A stretch of DNA of 64,000 bases from Methylobacterium sp. FF17 (lineage in GTDB: Bacteria > Pseudomonadota > Alphaproteobacteria > Rhizobiales > Beijerinckiaceae): assembly GCF_025813715.1 (NCBI RefSeq), contig NZ_CP107532.1, positions 4,932,001 through 4,996,000 of the forward strand, in the 5' to 3' direction. This document shows positions 35,475-43,112 of the stretch, in pieces. The notes beneath the pieces are model-generated. The model was not told the origin of the DNA and ran no database searches. It saw only the letters and a program-made list of their open reading frames with translations. Numbering within the stretch: position 1 is the first letter of the stretch; every line of letters begins with the position of its first letter. A program made the translations under genes and the position numbers.

Positions 35475-35744
35475 TCAGGGACGCGATGGCGCTGTCGGGG
35501 CTGCCCCCGGTGACGGCACGCTTTCGACGGGCCGTCCTTCGACCGGAAGCCCCCCGGCCCGTGGCGGCACCGGGATCGCGTCGCCGCTGCGGATCGCCTC
35601 CGCCTCGTTGCGGGCCCCTGCCCGGCCCTCCGTGCCGCCCGGGGCGGTGGCACCCTCCATTCCGGCGGGGGCGCCGACGCTCTGAGCCAGGGCCGGCCCC
35701 GCGAGGCCCAGCGACAGGGCGAGGAAAGTCATCTGACGGATCAT
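35475..35744 (-). CDS. Small exported protein, APAG/APGG family member 1
   Basis: An 89-aa protein with a signal peptide (MIRQMTFLALSLGLAGPALA, cleaved before QSVG). The mature part opens with the motif APAGMEGATAPGGTEGRA, followed by a Pro/Gly-rich tail. The same APAG-x5-APGG-x2-GR pattern occurs in the genes at 35773 and 42861. ATG 35744 is chosen for the signal peptide. It follows the second family member by 28 bases on the same strand, so the two are probably co-transcribed from the sigma-54 promoter at 36040. Function unknown; probably periplasmic or secreted. Confidence 0.65.
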   Translation of the reverse strand: MIRQMTFLALSLGLAGPALAQSVGAPAGMEGATAPGGTEGRAGARNEAEAIRSGDAIPVPPRAGGLPVEGRPVESVPSPGAAPTAPSRP

Positions 35745-35772
35745 GCGCGCGACTCCTGGACGGGATGAGGGA

Positions 35773-36000
35773 TCAGCGGTGCCGGTGGGGGCGGGTCGCC
35801 CGGTGCCGGGCCGCATGTCGGTGCTTCAGGGCCGTGCGTCCGCGCAGGCCGCCGGGCGCGGTGACGCGGGACTGGCCAGCGGGGGCGATCAGGCTGCCCT
35901 GGGCGCGCGGCGCCGGCGTCAGGACGGACAGGCCGGCGGTCACGAGGGCGGCCATCAGGGTCCTGGCTATCAGGCCCCTCACCGAAAACCGATGCGTCAC
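35773..36000 (-). CDS. Small exported protein, APAG/APGG family member 2
   Basis: A 75-aa protein starting at a GTG (36000) with a strong GGAGG ribosome-binding site seven bases upstream. Export signal: THRFSVRGLIARTLM, then AALVTAGLSVLTPAPRA. The mature part reads APAGQSRVTAPGGLRGRT and ends in a His/Arg-rich tail (KHRHAARHRATRPHRHR), which could bind metal or polyanions. A near-consensus sigma-54 promoter lies 40 bases before the start. Located between xdhC and the HIU hydrolase gene. Function unknown. Confidence 0.65.
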   Translation of the reverse strand: MTHRFSVRGLIARTLMAALVTAGLSVLTPAPRAQGSLIAPAGQSRVTAPGGLRGRTALKHRHAARHRATRPHRHR

Positions 36001-36356
36001 CGCCTGTCCTCCCCGGGCCCGCCGCCCGCTCGGGACGGCAGCAAGGAACGTGCCGGATTCGCTCAAAATCTCAGGGGCTTGCGAGGCCGGCGGCCTCCGC
36101 TACCGAGTCACACGGCCGTGAACCATGGTCGGCCTCCGCGAGCCCCTCCAGGGTCGCGAAAGGCGGCCCGTTCCGGAAGGCCGTTTCCCGCGCCGGGCCC
36201 CGCCGCGAGGGTGCCACCGCGCCGACGAAGTTGGGCTCGGCCGCGCCGCGCGACGACGGCGAGAGCTATCGGCGGGCGGGAAGGTGGGCCAGGGAAAGCA
36301 GGTCAGGGAAAGCGGGACCAGCGGAACCGGAGCAAGGGGCTCGGGGCTCGTCTCGG
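36001..36356. other. Intergenic region with sigma-54-type promoter
   Basis: A 356-base gap between the small-protein pair and the OHCU/HIU gene, both on the minus strand. It holds the promoter element at 36040..36055 and a short direct repeat of cagggaaagc (about 36292 to 36320). No gene recognised in the rest. Confidence 0.45.
36040..36055 (-). promoter_or_regulatory. Sigma-54 (-24/-12) promoter of the small exported proteins
   Basis: Read on the minus strand, CGGCACGTTCCTTGCT matches TGGCACG-N4-TTGCW at every defined position except the first T. Transcription would start near 36028, about 28 bases before the GTG of family member 2. This suggests nitrogen (RpoN/NtrC) control of the small-protein operon. 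Confidence 0.65.
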
Positions 36357-37238
36357 TCAGCTCCCGCGATAGGTCTGGTAGCTCCACGGACTCGCCACCA
36401 GCGGCACGTGGTAGTGCCCCTCCGGGTCGGCGGCGCCGAAGCGCAGCGCGACGATGTCCAGGAAGGGCGGCTCGGGCAGACCCGGCTGGGTCGCCCGGAA
36501 ATGGTCGCCGATCCGGAAGCGCAGTTCGTAGGCAGCGATCGGCACCGGGCGTCCGTGGATCAGGGGCGCGTCCGTGCGTCCGTCCGCGTTGGTCACGGCC
36601 CGGGCGACCAGCGCCGTCTCGGTGTCCGATACCCATTCGTGGAGCTCCACCGCCACCCCCGGCGCCGGTCGACCCGCCGCCGTGTCGAGGACATGGGTGG
36701 AGACCCGCCCCGTGGTGCGCGGTGTTCCGGGCCCGTCGACCAGGGTGGCGAGGCGGATTGCGGCGATGCGGAAGACTTCCGCGAGGGCGGTGGCGCGCTC
36801 CGTCTCCGGGTCACTGGCGAGGCGGGTCGCGAAGGCCCCCAGCAGCGAGGCGCGGCCATGGCGCTTGACGCAGAGGATGAAGGGGAACCCGAAGCGGGCG
36901 CGGTAATCCGCATTGAGCGCCGCGAAGCGCGCGTATTCCGCCTCCGAGAGCCGGTCGAGCCCGGCCGAGGCCTGCTCGGCGATGGAATCGGGCGCGATCG
37001 CGCCGTCGCGGGCCGCGCGTCCGGCAAGCTCGGGGTGGTTGGTCAGAAGTTCGAGCCGGGCCGCCTCGGGGGCAGCCTCCACCGCCTCCCGCATGGCGCC
37101 GAGCAGGGCCTCCACGGTGGCGAAGGGCCGTCGCCCGGCGGCCGCCTCGGCGACCCAGGGCGCGTGCTCGAACACCGCCCCGAGGGTGGCGACGACATCG
37201 CCGGGGGCGGCGTGGTTCAGGTCGTCGAGGGTCGGCAT
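36357..37238 (-). CDS. Fused OHCU decarboxylase / 5-hydroxyisourate hydrolase
   Basis: A 293-aa bifunctional protein. Residues about 1 to 170 are the OHCU decarboxylase (UraD-like) domain with LTNHPELAGRA, EYARFAALNADYRARFGFPF and CVKRHGRASLLG. Residues 178 to 293 are HIU hydrolase (transthyretin-like) with STHVLDTAAGRPAPG and the diagnostic C-terminal YRGS. It turns 5-hydroxyisourate, the urate oxidase product, into S-allantoin, keeping the unstable intermediates together. Domain order is decarboxylase first. A candidate sigma-54 promoter lies 43 bases upstream. Confidence 0.92.
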   Translation of the reverse strand: MPTLDDLNHAAPGDVVATLGAVFEHAPWVAEAAAGRRPFATVEALLGAMREAVEAAPEAARLELLTNHPELAGRAARDGAIAPDSIAEQASAGLDRLSEAEYARFAALNADYRARFGFPFILCVKRHGRASLLGAFATRLASDPETERATALAEVFRIAAIRLATLVDGPGTPRTTGRVSTHVLDTAAGRPAPGVAVELHEWVSDTETALVARAVTNADGRTDAPLIHGRPVPIAAYELRFRIGDHFRATQPGLPEPPFLDIVALRFGAADPEGHYHVPLVASPWSYQTYRGS

Positions 37239-37280
37239 CGCGTTCCTTCCTGCGCGCTGGCGGGCGCCGCCGCTCTAGCA

Positions 37281-37296
37281 GGCAACGGGCCAGCCG
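37281..37296 (-). promoter_or_regulatory. Candidate sigma-54 promoter of the OHCU/HIU gene
   Basis: On the minus strand CGGCTGGCCCGTTGCC has GG and GC at the required spacing, C after GG and TTGC, but deviates at the first, fifth, seventh and last positions. It is 43 bases before the start codon. Weaker than the sites at 36040 and 40215. Confidence 0.35.
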
Positions 37297-37373
37297 GCAC
37301 CGGCTCGCCAGGGCCCCCGAAATGTGATCTTGCGCGGGCCCGGCCGCAGAGCCGGACAACGAGGCAAGGCGCC

Positions 37374-37739
37374 ATGACCCCCAGGACGCATCTCCCGCCC
37401 GACGCGACGCTGATCGAGGTCGCGGGCGACCTCACCGAACCCGAGGAATACCTGCGCCGGCTCCTCGGCAACATGCGCTTCTGCCAGAAGCGGCACGGCG
37501 ACGCCCTGGTGCGCATCGGCGTGACCGGGAAGGGCCGGAAGGGGTTCAGTCCCTCATACCGCATCGATTATCATGCGGACGGGGTCGAGACCGTCTTCAA
37601 CGGCTTCGGCGGCACCTCGCACAGCGCCTTCACCGAGACCAACGTCCGCGAGACGAACTGGAGCCGCGGCCACGCGACGATCCAGGAGGTGCAGCGCCTC
37701 TACGACGCGTTGCGCAAGGGGCCGGCGCGCGCACCGTGA
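37374..37739 (+). CDS. Hypothetical protein (121 aa)
   Basis: A soluble 121-aa protein starting at 37374 with an AAGG ribosome-binding site. It has a first helix (EPEEYLRRLLGNMRFCQKRH), a beta-rich middle (ALVRIGVTGKGRKGFSPSYR, IDYHADGVETVFNGFGGTSH) and a last helix (HATIQEVQRLYDALRKG). No domain recognised. It is divergent from the OHCU/HIU gene and is the only gene between it and the diguanylate cyclase protein. The frame is open far upstream, but that part shadows the OHCU/HIU gene. Confidence 0.65.
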   Translation: MTPRTHLPPDATLIEVAGDLTEPEEYLRRLLGNMRFCQKRHGDALVRIGVTGKGRKGFSPSYRIDYHADGVETVFNGFGGTSHSAFTETNVRETNWSRGHATIQEVQRLYDALRKGPARAP

Positions 37740-37908
37740 GCCCGTCCTCGGCGTATCCCCGCAGGCGGGGTGGGGCCACCCGCACCGGTCCCGGCGGGTG
37801 CGGGATCGCCGTGGGCGAACGCGTATCGGGCGAGTGAGTATAATGTGCTCGGGATGTTTCGGAAACGAGGATTGACATAAGTTAGAGCGACAATCGATCC
37901 TGTATTTT

Positions 37909-37922
37909 CCTTCGTTCGAAGG
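37909..37922. promoter_or_regulatory. Short palindrome upstream of the GGDEF-EAL gene
   Basis: CCTTCG-TT-CGAAGG is a perfect 6-bp inverted repeat with a 2-base centre, 37 bases before the start codon at 37959, in a locally AT-richer stretch. A TTGACA hexamer lies at 37872..37877, but no -10 box at standard spacing is clear. It may be an operator. Confidence 0.3.
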
Positions 37923-37958
37923 TCGTAGGAGAGTTCTCGCGTCGCGTGAGCCCGTAGA

Positions 37959-40172
37959 ATGGCGGAAATGGTCGGAGCCTCCCTATCCGGAATCGGGTGC
38001 GATGACGCCACGGAGCCGGGTGAGCCTGCCGCGGATCTTCAGCTCGACGCTGTCTGCCGGACGGCGGCCGCGCTCTTCGGCGTTCGTTACGCCTTCGTCT
38101 CGCGGGTGGGCGAGGCCCGGCAATGGTTCCTTGGCCGGGAGGGGCTGAGTCTGTCCGGCACGCCGAAGTCCGTGGCGTTCTGCGCCCACACCGTCCTGGG
38201 CGAAGCTCATGTGCCCTTCGTGGTGCTCGACACCCATCGCGACCCACGCTTCTCCAACCATCCCCTCGTCCTCGGCGCGCCCTTCCTGCGCTTCTACGCG
38301 GGCGTGCCGATCGCCCTGTCCGAGGGGGTCGATGCCGCCACCGTCTGCATCGCCGACCCGGAGCCGCGCGCCCGGTTCGGCGCGGCGGAGCGCCAGCGCC
38401 TCGTGGACCTGGCCCTGTTCGTTGAGGCGACGCTGCGGGGCCGGGTCGCCGAGGCCGAGGCGGATCGCGCGCATCGCCGGCTCGAGACCTCGGACTCCCT
38501 CCTGCGCGTCACCCTGGAGAGCATGGATCAGGGCCTGCTCATGACGGACGGCGAGGATCGCGTGCGGGTCTATAACCGGCGCGTCGCCGGCATGATGGGG
38601 GTGCCGCAGGACCTGCTCTACGACGGCGCGCCCTTCGAGGCCGTGCGGTCCTACCAGAGGGCACAGGGCGAGTTCGCCCACCTGCCCGATGGTCTCCGGG
38701 CCTGGCTGGAGCGCGGCGAGCCGGCGGCGCGGATCTACGATTACGAGCGCGCCCGCCCGGACGGAACCGTGCTCCAGGTCCGCACCCTGCCCCTGCCCCA
38801 GGGCGGCCTCGTGCGCACCTTCACGGACGTGACGGGACGCCGCGCGGCCGAGGAGCGGGTCCGGCACATGGCCCTGCACGATGCGCTGACGGGACTGCCC
38901 AACCGCACGCTGTTCCGCGACCGCCTGGAGCAGGCCATCACCCATGCGGGCCGGGCCCGCACCGCCTTCGCGGTGCTGGCCTGCGACCTCGACCGCTTCA
39001 AGGCCGTCAACGACAGCCTCGGCCATCCGGCCGGCGACGCGCTGCTGCGCGTCGTGGCCGAGCGGATGCAGGCGGTGCTTCGCCCCACCGATACGATCGC
39101 GCGCCTCGGCGGCGACGAGTTCGCCGTCGTGCTCACCTATCTCGACGCGCCCGACGAGGCGGCGGAGCTGGCGGAGCGGCTGATCGCGGCAGTGAGCAAG
39201 CCCCACGACCTCGACGGGCAGAGCGTCGAGGTCGGCGTCAGCATCGGCGTTGCTATCGCGACGCAGGCGGACCGGGACCCCGACGAAGTGTTCAAGCGCG
39301 CCGATATCGCCCTGTACGAGGCCAAGGCGGCGGGGCGCAACACCCACCGGGCGTTCGAGCCGGCTGCGGGCGCGCGCATCGCCACGCGCGGCCGCCTCGC
39401 CCTCGACATGAAGGAGGCGATCCGGCGGCGGGAGTTCCACCTCGCCTACCAGCCCGTGATCGACGCCGACACGGGGGCCATCGTCAGCTTCGAGGCGCTA
39501 ATGCGCTGGCGCCATCCGGTCCGGGGCGAGATCGCGCCGGGCGCCTTCATCGCGCTCGCCGAGGAGACGGGGCTGATCGTGCCGCTCGGCGCCTGGGCCC
39601 TGCAGGAGGCCTGCCGCGAGGCGACCGCCTGGCCCCTGCCCCTGCGCGTGGCGGTGAACGTCTCGCCGGTGCAGCTGCGGCGCCCGGGCCTCGAGGCAAC
39701 GGTGCTGGCGGCCCTCGCGGCGAGCGGCCTGCCGGCGGAACGCCTCAAGCTCGAGGTGACCGAGAGCGTGCTGATGCAGGATGCCGACGAGGTGCTCGGC
39801 CGCCTGCATCGCCTGCGCGCCCTCGGCGTGCTCATCGCGCTCGACGATTTCGGCACCGGCTACTCGTCCCTGAGCTACCTGCGCCGCTTTCCCTTCGACC
39901 GGATCAAGATCGACCGCGCCTTCATCCGTGACATCGCCGATCCGGACGCGGCGGCGATCGTGCGCGCGGTGGTCGGCATCGGCGAGCGCCTGGGCATGGG
40001 CATCGTGGCCGAGGGCGTGGAGACTGCCGAGCAACTCGCCCTCGTGCGCCGGGAAGGCTGCGCGCAGGTGCAGGGATTCCTGTTCAGCCCGCCGCTGCCG
40101 CCCCACGCGGTGCGGCTCTTCATGCGGGACTGGGAGGGCGGGTGCGCTCGGGCGCTGCTCGCGCGGGGCTGA
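37959..40172 (+). CDS. GAF-PAS-GGDEF-EAL cyclic-di-GMP signalling protein
   Basis: A 737-aa cytoplasmic protein. An N-terminal GAF domain spans residues about 25 to 165, then a PAS domain (about 185 to 305, with SMDQGLLMTDGEDRVRVYNR), a GGDEF domain (about 315 to 470) and an EAL domain (about 480 to 730). The active site is intact GGDEF (residues 384 to 388), with the inhibitory RxxD site as RPTD five residues before. The EAL domain has FEALMRWRHP, ALDDFGTGYSSLSYL and VQGFLFSPPL, so both activities may be present. No membrane helices. It interrupts the purine genes; whether it responds to nitrogen compounds is unknown. Confidence 0.92.
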   Translation: MAEMVGASLSGIGCDDATEPGEPAADLQLDAVCRTAAALFGVRYAFVSRVGEARQWFLGREGLSLSGTPKSVAFCAHTVLGEAHVPFVVLDTHRDPRFSNHPLVLGAPFLRFYAGVPIALSEGVDAATVCIADPEPRARFGAAERQRLVDLALFVEATLRGRVAEAEADRAHRRLETSDSLLRVTLESMDQGLLMTDGEDRVRVYNRRVAGMMGVPQDLLYDGAPFEAVRSYQRAQGEFAHLPDGLRAWLERGEPAARIYDYERARPDGTVLQVRTLPLPQGGLVRTFTDVTGRRAAEERVRHMALHDALTGLPNRTLFRDRLEQAITHAGRARTAFAVLACDLDRFKAVNDSLGHPAGDALLRVVAERMQAVLRPTDTIARLGGDEFAVVLTYLDAPDEAAELAERLIAAVSKPHDLDGQSVEVGVSIGVAIATQADRDPDEVFKRADIALYEAKAAGRNTHRAFEPAAGARIATRGRLALDMKEAIRRREFHLAYQPVIDADTGAIVSFEALMRWRHPVRGEIAPGAFIALAEETGLIVPLGAWALQEACREATAWPLPLRVAVNVSPVQLRRPGLEATVLAALAASGLPAERLKLEVTESVLMQDADEVLGRLHRLRALGVLIALDDFGTGYSSLSYLRRFPFDRIKIDRAFIRDIADPDAAAIVRAVVGIGERLGMGIVAEGVETAEQLALVRREGCAQVQGFLFSPPLPPHAVRLFMRDWEGGCARALLARG

Positions 40173-40214
40173 TCCGCAGGCCCGGTGCGGTCCGCCGGAG
40201 CCTGCGCCCAGGGG

Positions 40215-40230
40215 TGGCACGTGGTTTGCG
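40215..40230 (+). promoter_or_regulatory. Sigma-54 (-24/-12) promoter of the urate permease/urate oxidase operon
   Basis: TGGCACGTGGTTTGCG matches all defined consensus positions TGGCACG-N4-TTGC; only the final W differs. The start codon of the permease is 50 bases downstream and transcription would begin near 40242. This is the best sigma-54 element in the window and implies RpoN plus an enhancer-binding activator such as NtrC. Confidence 0.75.
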
Positions 40231-40279
40231 GACCCTGCTCCGGAGAGCCGGTCCGGCTCGCCAGACGAGGGACCATCGC

Positions 40280-41647
40280 GTGGAACACGGCCCTTCCCCC
40301 TCCGTTCCGGCGGCGCCGGCCCGCACGGTTCCGCCCGCGGCCCTCGGCCTCCTTGGCCTCCAGCACGTGCTGGTGATGTATGCCGGGGCCGTGGCGGTGC
40401 CGCTGATCGTCGGGCGCGCCCTCAAGCTGCCCCCCGAGCAGGTGGCGATGCTGGTCAGCGCCGACCTGTTCGCCTGCGGCCTCGCCACCCTGATCCAGAG
40501 CTGGGGCCTGCCCGGCATCGGCATCCGCATGCCGGTGATGATGGGCGTGACCTTCGCGGCGGTGACGCCGATGATCGCCATGGGCACCAGCCCGGATCTC
40601 GGGCTCACCGGCATCTACGGCGCCGTCATCGTCGCCGGCCTGTTCGCCCTCTTCGCCGCCCCCCTGGTCGGGCGCCTGCTGCCGCTGTTCCCGCCGGTGG
40701 TGACCGGGACGGTCATCCTCGTCATCGGCATCTCACTGATGCGGGTGGGAGTGAACTGGGCGGCGGGCGGGGTCGGTAACCCGCAATACGGGGCGCCGCT
40801 CTACCTCGGCATCGCCCTGTTCGTCCTCCTCGTCATCCTCGCCCTGACCCGCTACACGCGGGGCTTCGTGGCCTCGGCCTCCGTGCTCATCGGGATCGTC
40901 GCCGGCATGGCGGCGGCAGGCGCCTTCGGCCTCGTGGACCTGTCGCGGGTGGCCGCGGCGCCGTGGTTCGACGTGGTGCGCCCCTTCGCCTTCGGCATGC
41001 CGACCTTCGACCTCGTGGCCAGCCTCACCCTCTGCCTGGTCATGGTGGTGGTGATGATCGAATCCACCGGCATGTTCCTGGCGCTCGCCGAGATCACCGG
41101 CGAGACCGTGGACGAGCCCCGCCTCGTCAGGGGCCTGCGCGCCGACGGGCTCGGCACCGCGCTCGGCGGCATCTTCAACACCTTTCCCTACACCTCCTTC
41201 TCGCAGAACATCGGCCTCGTCGGCGTCACCGGCGTGCGCTCCCGCTGGGTCACGGTCATCGGCGGCTTCATCATGCTCGGCCTCGGGCTCATCCCCAAGC
41301 TCGCGGCCCTGGTGGAAGCGGTGCCGCCCTGCGTCCTGGGCGGCGCCGGGCTCGTGATGTTCGGCATGGTGGCGGCCACGGGCGCACGCATCCTCGGGGC
41401 CGTGGATTTCGCCGGCAACCGCAACAACCTGTTCATCGTCGCCGTCTCGGTGGGCTTCGGGCTGATTCCCCTGGTGGCGCCGAACTTCTTCCGGCAGATG
41501 CCCGACGCCCTGCATCCGCTGCTCGAATCCGGCATCCTGCTCGCGGCCCTGTCGGCGCTCGCCCTGAACCTGTTCTTCAACGGGCTCGGCAGCCAGGCCG
41601 GGGCCCGCGCCGAGGCGACCCGCCTCGCCCACGCCGCCGAGGCGTGA
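40280..41647 (+). CDS. NAT/NCS2 permease, probably urate/xanthine
   Basis: A 455-aa nucleobase-cation symporter with about 12 to 14 helices. The N-terminal helix has the family's QHVLVMYAGAVAVPLIVG, and the NAT signature reads SFSQNIGLVGVTGVRSR. Members with this form next to uricase genes usually carry urate or xanthine. The GTG at 40280 is chosen: a gaggg purine run precedes it and it begins just before the first helix. It is 34 bases from the urate oxidase gene, so they form one operon. Confidence 0.85.
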   Translation: MEHGPSPSVPAAPARTVPPAALGLLGLQHVLVMYAGAVAVPLIVGRALKLPPEQVAMLVSADLFACGLATLIQSWGLPGIGIRMPVMMGVTFAAVTPMIAMGTSPDLGLTGIYGAVIVAGLFALFAAPLVGRLLPLFPPVVTGTVILVIGISLMRVGVNWAAGGVGNPQYGAPLYLGIALFVLLVILALTRYTRGFVASASVLIGIVAGMAAAGAFGLVDLSRVAAAPWFDVVRPFAFGMPTFDLVASLTLCLVMVVVMIESTGMFLALAEITGETVDEPRLVRGLRADGLGTALGGIFNTFPYTSFSQNIGLVGVTGVRSRWVTVIGGFIMLGLGLIPKLAALVEAVPPCVLGGAGLVMFGMVAATGARILGAVDFAGNRNNLFIVAVSVGFGLIPLVAPNFFRQMPDALHPLLESGILLAALSALALNLFFNGLGSQAGARAEATRLAHAAEA

Positions 41648-41681
41648 GCCTCGTTTTCCCGACGACGAAAGGACCGGCATC

Positions 41682-42524
41682 ATGGCGCTGACGAAGGCAC
41701 GCTACGGCAAGGGCCGCGTGCGGGTGCTCCGGCTCGCCCGCGGAGCCGAGCGCCACGACGTGCGCGAACTCTCCCTGACGGTGCTGCTGGAGGGCGATTT
41801 CGGAGCCTCCTGGACGGCGGGGGACAACCGGCAGGTCATCGCCACCGACAGCATCAAGAACATCGTCAACATCACCGCCGCCCGGCACGTGGAGGCCGAG
41901 ACCGAAGCCTTCGTCGGACACGTCGCGGCCCTGTTCCTGGAGCGCTACGCGCAGGTCGCCTCCGTCAGCATCGAGTCCCTGGAAACCCGCTGGCTGCGCC
42001 GGGACGTGCAGGGGGCGCCCCACGCCCACACCTTCACCCTCGACGGCAACGGCCAGCCCTTCGTGCGGCTGGTGGCCGACCGGGGCGGCTCGGTGCTGGA
42101 ATCGGGCCTGCGCGGCTACACCCTGATGAAGACGACGCAATCCGGCTGGGAGGACTTCGTCGACGACGCGTACCGCACCCTGCCCGATACCGGCGACCGC
42201 ATCTGCGCCACCAGCATGGACGCGACCTGGACCTGGGCCGCGCCGCCCGCCGACCCGGTGGCGACCAACGCGGCGGTGCTCGACACGATGATCACGGTCT
42301 TCGCCACCACCTACAGCGCGGGGGTGCAGGACAGCATGTATCGCATGGGCGAAGCGGTGCTCGCCGCCCGGCCCGACATCGCCGAGATCCACTTCGCGAT
42401 GCCCAACAAGCACTACATCCCGATGAATCTCGGGGCGTTCGGCATCGATCACGGGGGGCAGGTCTTCCTGCCGACCGACGAGCCGCACGGCCAGATCGAG
42501 GCCACCATCGGCCGGGCCGACTGA
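41682..42524 (+). CDS. uox: Urate oxidase (cofactor-free uricase)
   Basis: A 280-aa two-T-fold enzyme that oxidises urate to 5-hydroxyisourate with O2, giving H2O2. Visible active-site parts are Lys in RYGKGRVRVLR, Thr in ATDSIKNIVNI, the substrate-binding SGLRGYTLMKTTQSGWEDF and His in PNKHYIPMNL. It lacks flavin motifs, so it is not HpxO. The product is processed by the fused protein at 36357. Confidence 0.95.
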   Translation: MALTKARYGKGRVRVLRLARGAERHDVRELSLTVLLEGDFGASWTAGDNRQVIATDSIKNIVNITAARHVEAETEAFVGHVAALFLERYAQVASVSIESLETRWLRRDVQGAPHAHTFTLDGNGQPFVRLVADRGGSVLESGLRGYTLMKTTQSGWEDFVDDAYRTLPDTGDRICATSMDATWTWAAPPADPVATNAAVLDTMITVFATTYSAGVQDSMYRMGEAVLAARPDIAEIHFAMPNKHYIPMNLGAFGIDHGGQVFLPTDEPHGQIEATIGRAD

Positions 42525-42860
42525 TTTCATTCGACCTGCGGCCGAATCGGGTCGACGTGGGCGCTGACGCGACGCGGTAGAGCATGGCGCGCCCCAGCCC
42601 GGTCGCGGATCATGCCAGGCCGCGCGTTCGCGTGCGAAAATCGTAGGCGGACGAATAAGGGTTTGATCGGGTTGATGTTTTTAGCGCAGGCATCCCAACC
42701 GGAGCCAAGCGAGCAGCGATAATCTGAAAACTGCTCATCTTCGTTGCATAGTCTGCAAGCAAGTCTTGTTGTTTTCTGAAGCAGGTGTGCTCAATTTCTG
42801 GGAACTTGGATGCCGCGTCGCGCGTCGTGGCGGCAACCGTTCAGACCCAGGACTTGCGCC
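42525..42860. other. AT-richer intergenic region upstream of small exported protein 3
   Basis: A 336-base gap after urate oxidase. The stretch 42650..42800 is clearly less GC-rich than the surroundings, as promoters here tend to be. A weak sigma-54-like element (TTGGATGCCGCGTCGCG, 42806..42822) has GG and GC at correct spacing but a poor -12 box. No gene recognised. Confidence 0.4.
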
Positions 42861-43112
42861 ATGATCCGTCACAGCCTCACCGCTGCCCTCGCCGTCGCCC
42901 TCGGCCTGTCCGCCTCGGGCGCTCTGGCCCAGAGCTACACTGCACCGGCGGGGATACCAGCCGCGTTGGCGCCCGGCGGGCTCGAAGGCCGGGCCGCCGA
43001 ACGCAATGTCCATCAGCTGCACGGCGGACGCGTGCACGCCGTCACGCCGCTGAGGCACCAGGACGAGATCGCCACCGGCTCGGTCCGCCCCCGCCGCGAC
43101 GACCGGCGATAG
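42861..43112 (+). CDS. Small exported protein, APAG/APGG family member 3
   Basis: An 83-aa protein with a classical signal peptide (MIRHSLTAALAVALGLSASG then ALA, cleaved before QSYT). The mature protein opens with APAGIPAALAPGGLEGRA and has a basic, His-containing tail (RVHAVTPLRHQDE, RPRRDDRR). The motif is shared with the two genes at 35475 and 35773. It lies between urate oxidase and the convergent rutF. Function unknown. Confidence 0.65.
   Translation: MIRHSLTAALAVALGLSASGALAQSYTAPAGIPAALAPGGLEGRAAERNVHQLHGGRVHAVTPLRHQDEIATGSVRPRRDDRR

Follow-up and report, generated by a model that had tools for sequence, protein, structure and literature searches.

Small exported protein genes at a purine catabolism locus

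The window analyzed here, a 64,000-nucleotide stretch of Methylobacterium sp. FF17 DNA (contig NZ_CP107532.1, positions 4,932,001 to 4,996,000), contains purine catabolism genes accompanied by three short open reading frames (ORFs) whose predicted products are small exported proteins. We refer to them as types A, B, and C. Below, we describe the family that they belong to, the selection acting on it, and its promoters and neighborhood, and consider what the proteins may do. The three genes are as follows.

35475..35744, minus strand: type A small exported protein, 89 amino acids (aa), ATG start; core SVGAPAGMEGATAPGGTEGRAGARNEAEAIRSGDAI, Pro-rich tail
35773..36000, minus strand: type B small exported protein, 75 aa, GTG start; core APAGQSRVTAPGGLRGR, His/Arg-rich tail
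42861..43112, plus strand: type C small exported protein, 83 aa, ATG start; core QSYTAPAGIPAALAPGGLEGRA, basic tail with ATGSVR

Types B and A form an apparent operon in which B is first and is separated from A by 28 bases. A sequence-only reading of this DNA had proposed that the three ORFs encode proteins with signal peptides, a common APAG/APGG/GR motif, and differing tails. The ORFs are present as it described; A-P-A-G, A-P-G-G, and G-R are invariant across the three-row alignment of the window proteins; and the features of a predicted Sec signal (a positively charged start, a hydrophobic stretch, and A-x-A before the cleavage site) can be recognized by eye in the family alignments.

The A, B, and C genes are protein-coding, with the core under purifying selection and the tails much looser. 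In the window’s clade (Nei-Gojobori method, 8 to 9 sequences), ratios of nonsynonymous to synonymous substitution rates (dN/dS) were 0.10, 0.21, and 0.04 for the cores of A, B, and C, and 0.59, 0.45, and 0.76 for the tails. The corresponding values in a Methylorubrum-type set (5 to 8 sequences) were 0.18, 0.11, and 0.00 for the cores and 0.45, 0.10, and 0.29 for the tails. In a third clade, dN/dS was 0.17 for the core and 0.89 for the tail of A, and 0.04 and 0.68, respectively, for C.

Mature chains average 39 to 64 residues and are nearly Cys-free; the mean net charge of type B is near +10, and the type C tail is weakly basic. AlphaFold models are of low confidence [mean predicted local distance difference test (pLDDT) score of 66.7 and predicted template modeling (pTM) score of 0.28 for A; 59.2 and 0.26 for C], and the signal helix and one short helix are the sole features of the type A model. 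The best reading of these predictions is that the family proteins are small, Cys-poor, and mostly disordered.

Members and distribution of the family

A profile built from the three window proteins detected a fourth copy in the same genome (C1:4882526-4882627, E = 1.6e-6), ~50 kb outside the window. Iteration through related genomes yielded six subtypes, to which we gave the letters A to F; A, B, and C are found in the window, and D, E, and F elsewhere. All have a common signal peptide with the core right behind it, followed by tails that differ. The type A core has the pattern APAG..ATAPGGTEG.AG.RNE.EAIRSGDAI and a Pro-rich tail, type B has PPAGQPRVTAPGGLRGR and an Arg/His-rich tail, and type C has QSYTAPAGIPAATAPGGLEG and a TTGSVR-like tail. 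Motif-based lists held false or misplaced rows, three of which were removed by hand before alignment. The “family of three” of the sequence-only reading thus holds for the window and needs widening beyond it, since there are more genes, as well as types D, E, and F located away from purine genes.

The profile search for homologues suggested in that reading produced matches in 71 of 111 Methylobacterium/Methylorubrum genomes for each of two profiles, A/E/F and C/D (E ≤ 1e-5), and in 40 of 111 for the type B profile. When loci of relatives were collected by a DNA scan, 55 of 56 were titled Methylobacterium or Methylorubrum, and the remaining one was a Beijerinckiaceae metagenome bin. Nine genomes matched in a draw of 248 from the bacterial family (eight of the same genus and one other, E = 2.6e-4), and seven matched in a draw of 297 from the order (five of the same genus and two others, E = 9.6e-5 and 7.4e-4); these draws scored 21 and 18 candidates per genome, respectively, and could miss distant relatives. 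In another profile search outside the genus, seven genomes matched at E ≤ 0.1, with the best at ~0.002. No match for type A or type C was found in the plasmid collection. Judging from these searches, it is well supported that, at the sensitivity used, the family occurs essentially only in Methylobacterium/Methylorubrum.

Two sets of related sequences stand apart from the subtypes. At L047:9605-10012 (genome G020), a type A–like core is followed by an unrelated reading frame, and this is probably a frameshifted copy. Other small exported proteins have a type C–like start after the signal peptide (AQSYTAP) and an unrelated KADRK..CTQEADRRNMRGLSRQQ body; the one member scanned had no Pfam match.

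L043:18133-18366, L064:621-863, L089:18243-18485, L094:18538-18780, and L105:17551-17793: AQSYTAP/KADRK proteins

A sigma-54–type promoter ahead of the B-A pair

Sigma-54 promoters carry GG at −24 and GC at −12 with 10 bases between them, with a consensus near TGGCAC-N5-TTGC. We defined a strict site as YGGCAY-N5-TTGC and sought it within 200 bases before each small-protein gene, with types assigned by profile plus simple rules; xdhC was excluded from the counts. The sites and purine genes of the window are listed below.

36041..36055, minus strand: sigma-54–type −24/−12 site CGGCACGTTCCTTGC ahead of type B; exact pattern match
36357..37238, minus strand: OHCU decarboxylase fused to HIU hydrolase (HIUase/transthyretin); Pfam PF09349 and PF00576
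37277..37292, minus strand: sigma-54–type site TGGCCCGTTGCCTGCT ahead of the OHCU/HIU gene; conserved among relatives’ upstreams
40215..40229, plus strand: sigma-54–type site TGGCACGTGGTTTGC ahead of the xanthine/uracil permease gene; exact pattern match
40280..41647, plus strand: xanthine/uracil permease, first of the permease-uricase pair; Pfam PF00860
41682..42524, plus strand: urate oxidase (uricase); Pfam PF01014

XdhC is also among the purine-gene neighbors (Pfam). A PAS-GGDEF-EAL gene at 37959-40172 separates OHCU/HIU from the permease gene in this genome; few related loci have a match to it at ≥45% identity.

Exact strict matches in the window are limited to 36041-36055 and 40215-40229. 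The former confirms the sigma-54–type promoter that the sequence-only reading had placed before two of the small genes: a strict site precedes type B in 31 of 33 distinct upstreams (30 in the scan, at 55 to 105 bases ahead of called starts, plus the L084 copy, which lies inside a mis-called start), against a chance expectation, from the density over scanned loci, of 0.008 per 200-base upstream. Of the two upstreams outside the strict pattern, that of L094 has a variant site and that of L089 has none. Type A, which follows B, has a strict site of its own in only 1 of 47 cases; by eye, three loci without B keep CGGCCAAAGACTTGCT ahead of A. The strict site is kept before all nine Methylorubrum-type B genes, including four whose genomes gave no match to uricase.

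The neighboring purine operons have sites of the same class. Ahead of the permease gene, such a site was found in 31 of 35 cases; among the four exceptions, two are paralogues with 54 to 55% identity. A fixed TGGCCCGTTGCCTGC-type site was found in 27 of 30 OHCU/HIU upstreams, with 0.016 expected by chance per 300 bases, and the remaining three keep GG-N10-GC as judged by eye. No strict site was found before guaD (0 of 16), xdhA (0 of 9), or uox itself (0 of 28). Genome-wide, the bare site is no commoner than a reversed control (1 versus 2; 13 versus 11 for a looser form); therefore, support for sigma-54 comes from conservation and not from the count. Overall, comparison of the upstream sequences gives good support for a sigma-54–type promoter before the B-A pair that belongs to one class with the permease-uricase and OHCU/HIU promoters. 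A dedicated activator encoded nearby was considered and rejected: the genome has seven sigma-54 activator domains, the nearest ~46 kb from the B promoter.

Upstream elements of other subtypes

Promoters seem to differ from one subtype to the next. A distinct conserved element precedes type C in 25 of 39 upstreams, and its pattern occurs 27 times overall in the 2.16 million strand-bases scanned. In the window, it is located as follows.

42767..42793, plus strand: type C promoter-region element (TGTTG...GCA...TGCTCA), recognized by conservation; overlaps a possible TTGTTT-N17-CAATTT promoter

An EcfG-type promoter for type C was rejected, since the strict pattern GGAAC-N17-CGTC is present in the window, L037, and L046 and absent before most type C genes. 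Type D copies (L065, L066, L067, L072, L073, and L076) share a long conserved sequence upstream that is particular to them.

Gene neighborhood and loss of uricase

Neighborhood totals were calculated for type B only, using 40 of the 41 listed B matches; A and C were represented by the stronger of the matches listed. Type A lies within 700 bases of B in 38 of 40 genomes. A uricase match (E ≤ 1e-20) is present in 29 of the 40, and in 27 of these 29 it lies within 20 kb of B on the same contig, which bears out the expected neighborhood bias to purine genes; in the other two, the genes are on different contigs.

In the 11 genomes without a uricase match, other parts of the locus persist. The G312 locus keeps only a 59-residue uricase stretch (L173:8675-8851), while the small-protein genes and the permease gene remain. 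The distance from B to C is ~0.8 to 1 kb in uricase-less G005, G027, and G332, and ~14.5 to 15 kb in five genomes. In G005, the neighbors are PnrA/Bmp-type substrate-binding proteins, permeases, an ABC ATPase, LysR regulators, and a xanthine-dehydrogenase–like protein. In a midpoint-rooted tree of a neighboring permease (34 rows; uricase labels refer to the fetched stretch only), uricase-bearing loci appear in each of three larger groups, and three uricase-less Methylorubrum-type loci are nested inside one of them (99/98 for the small group), which fits uricase loss. The sequence TGTTTCACGTGAAAC, which we take to resemble a parS site, is found at L056:8918, at L104:4897, and upstream of B in L054, near the spot where Methylorubrum-type genomes are missing OHCU and uricase.

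In genomes without a uricase match, retention of B, with its promoter and purifying selection kept in those checked, argues that its role is not tied to urate oxidase. The purine or urate link of the sequence-only reading therefore divides in two: judging from these comparisons, both promoter class and location bear out a link to purines, while a link to urate itself, with no uricase match in 11 of 40 B genomes, is not supported.

Proposed role and alternative explanations

The family, the coding selection, the promoters, and the neighborhood are directly supported. The explanation that we prefer, holding it at about even confidence, is that A, B, and C are exported proteins of a sigma-54 nitrogen-scavenging regulon that act at the envelope as accessories, adaptors, or chaperones. 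These genus-restricted small proteins would be exported by Sec; in each, the signal peptide is followed directly after its cleavage site by a conserved core and then by a tail that varies freely. Sigma-54 RNA polymerase would read the B-A operon and, along with it, the divergent OHCU/HIU and permease-uricase operons, perhaps with NtrC as activator, a guess made from precedent; type C would be transcribed from a separate conserved promoter. Once exported, the proteins would most likely all dock through the core on a single partner in the periplasm or envelope. Where or on what they act may then be set by the tails, which are Pro-rich in A, carry a charge of ~+10 in B, and are weakly basic in C. 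This role would come into play as the cell draws on purines and related compounds as nitrogen sources. We infer export, the nitrogen signal, the partner, and the role from sequence and context.

Several results weigh against this explanation. For each of the A/E/F and C/D profiles, 40 of 111 genomes of the genus have no match. The strict sigma-54 site is absent before C (0 of 52), D (0 of 6), E (0 of 14), and F (0 of 6). No NtrC-like palindrome was found with simple patterns upstream of B (0 of 13) or, with three such patterns, upstream of the permease gene (0 of 31). The Arg/His-rich type B protein would be costly to make under nitrogen limitation. According to the available text of a study of Burkholderia cenocepacia, growth of an ntrC mutant on uric acid was improved rather than impaired (PMC5491218).

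The alternative that survives best, which we nevertheless consider somewhat unlikely, is positional hitch-hiking: a genus-specific exported family would serve some general function at the envelope, and its A, B, and C members would lie by chance in an old nitrogen island. The location of D, E, and F outside the island, retention of the genes after uricase loss, and the different, non–sigma-54 element of type C agree with it. It does not account for the strict site before B in 31 of 33 upstreams, of the class used by the flanking purine operons and absent before guaD, xdhA, and uox.

The proteins may also constitute a genus-specific modular periplasmic system, in which paralogues with one docking core and different tails give one envelope partner different specificities, with B-A controlled by sigma-54 together with purine scavenging and other branches by other signals; this is speculative and unlikely.

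Quite unlikely is a dedicated urate-breakdown accessory that aids urate uptake or shields the envelope from the products and serves this pathway only. The common sigma-54 promoter class of B-A, OHCU/HIU, and permease-uricase and the proximity of B to uricase (within 20 kb in 27 of 29 genomes with both) would be expected from such a function. Yet no uricase match was obtained for 11 of the 40 B genomes, with only a 59-residue stretch retained in G312, and B and C lie ~0.8 to 1 kb apart in uricase-less G005, G027, and G332. Moreover, Methylorubrum-type loci keep the strict site (9 of 9) and a core under purifying selection, and branches D, E, and F are located elsewhere.

Very unlikely, in our view, are secreted peptide signals or propeptides whose mature chain is cut further to release an active peptide, perhaps the core. 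Such signals would fit secreted chains that are short, part conserved and part variable, and present as several paralogues per genome. However, the partly annotated neighbors included no recognized processing protease, modifying enzyme, or receptor, and the conserved part lies at the N terminus of the mature chain and varies between subtypes. Last, spurious ORFs, numerous in GC-rich DNA (87 of ≥50 aa in a 13-kb stretch), have a practically negligible probability as an explanation given purifying selection on the core and starts, promoters, and gene order conserved in many genomes.

An undescribed, selected, and regulated family is thus recognized in a well-studied plant-associated genus. The promoter tells when to look for its role, and uricase-less species show that urate is not the whole answer; this makes an orphan gene family testable, with a role that seems broader than urate breakdown.

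Comparison with known families and systems

That the proteins belong to no described family, as the sequence-only reading had supposed, agrees with database comparisons: none of the window proteins scored above a Pfam-A gathering cutoff, and no NCBIfam model fits. The first rows of two family alignments (A2 and A3) were likewise not over the Pfam gathering cutoff; other rows gave scattered single-row Pfam matches (best E = 0.0011, relation to the cutoff not given). Nothing below E = 0.65 was found in the PDB. We rejected the single Pfam matches, BRANT, and Asr as identities of the family, since their scores are at noise level.

The His-rich protein BRANT (NCBIfam NF047414) matched 1 of 10 type B rows (E = 0.036) and 2 of 25 type C/D rows (best E = 0.043). 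It resembles type B as a small His-rich protein, by name only. None of 41 genomes reached its 44-bit cutoff (best, 25.5), so the family is not a member on such evidence. The acid-shock protein Asr (NF033636), for which a chaperone role has been proposed, matched 1 of 20 type A/E/F rows (E = 0.031) and is also a small basic exported protein. It differs in that the match is at noise level, Asr-kind repeats are missing from our proteins, and the genus and setting are other.

In the portions of the literature available to us on sigma-54, nitrogen, uricase, or small exported proteins in Methylobacterium, on BRANT, on sigma-54 and urate, and on disordered chaperones, there was nothing on this family. 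The closest precedent for the regulation is B. cenocepacia, where, according to the available text of the study, sigma-54/NtrC controls a urate oxidase cluster and xanthine dehydrogenase (PMC5491218). Our loci differ in that simple patterns found no NtrC-like site upstream of B or of the permease gene. The likeness lies in sigma-54 promoters, carried here by both the urate genes and B-A. Our comparisons suggest that urate use in Methylobacterium may likewise be organized as a sigma-54 regulon, comprising permease-uricase, OHCU/HIU, and the small proteins.

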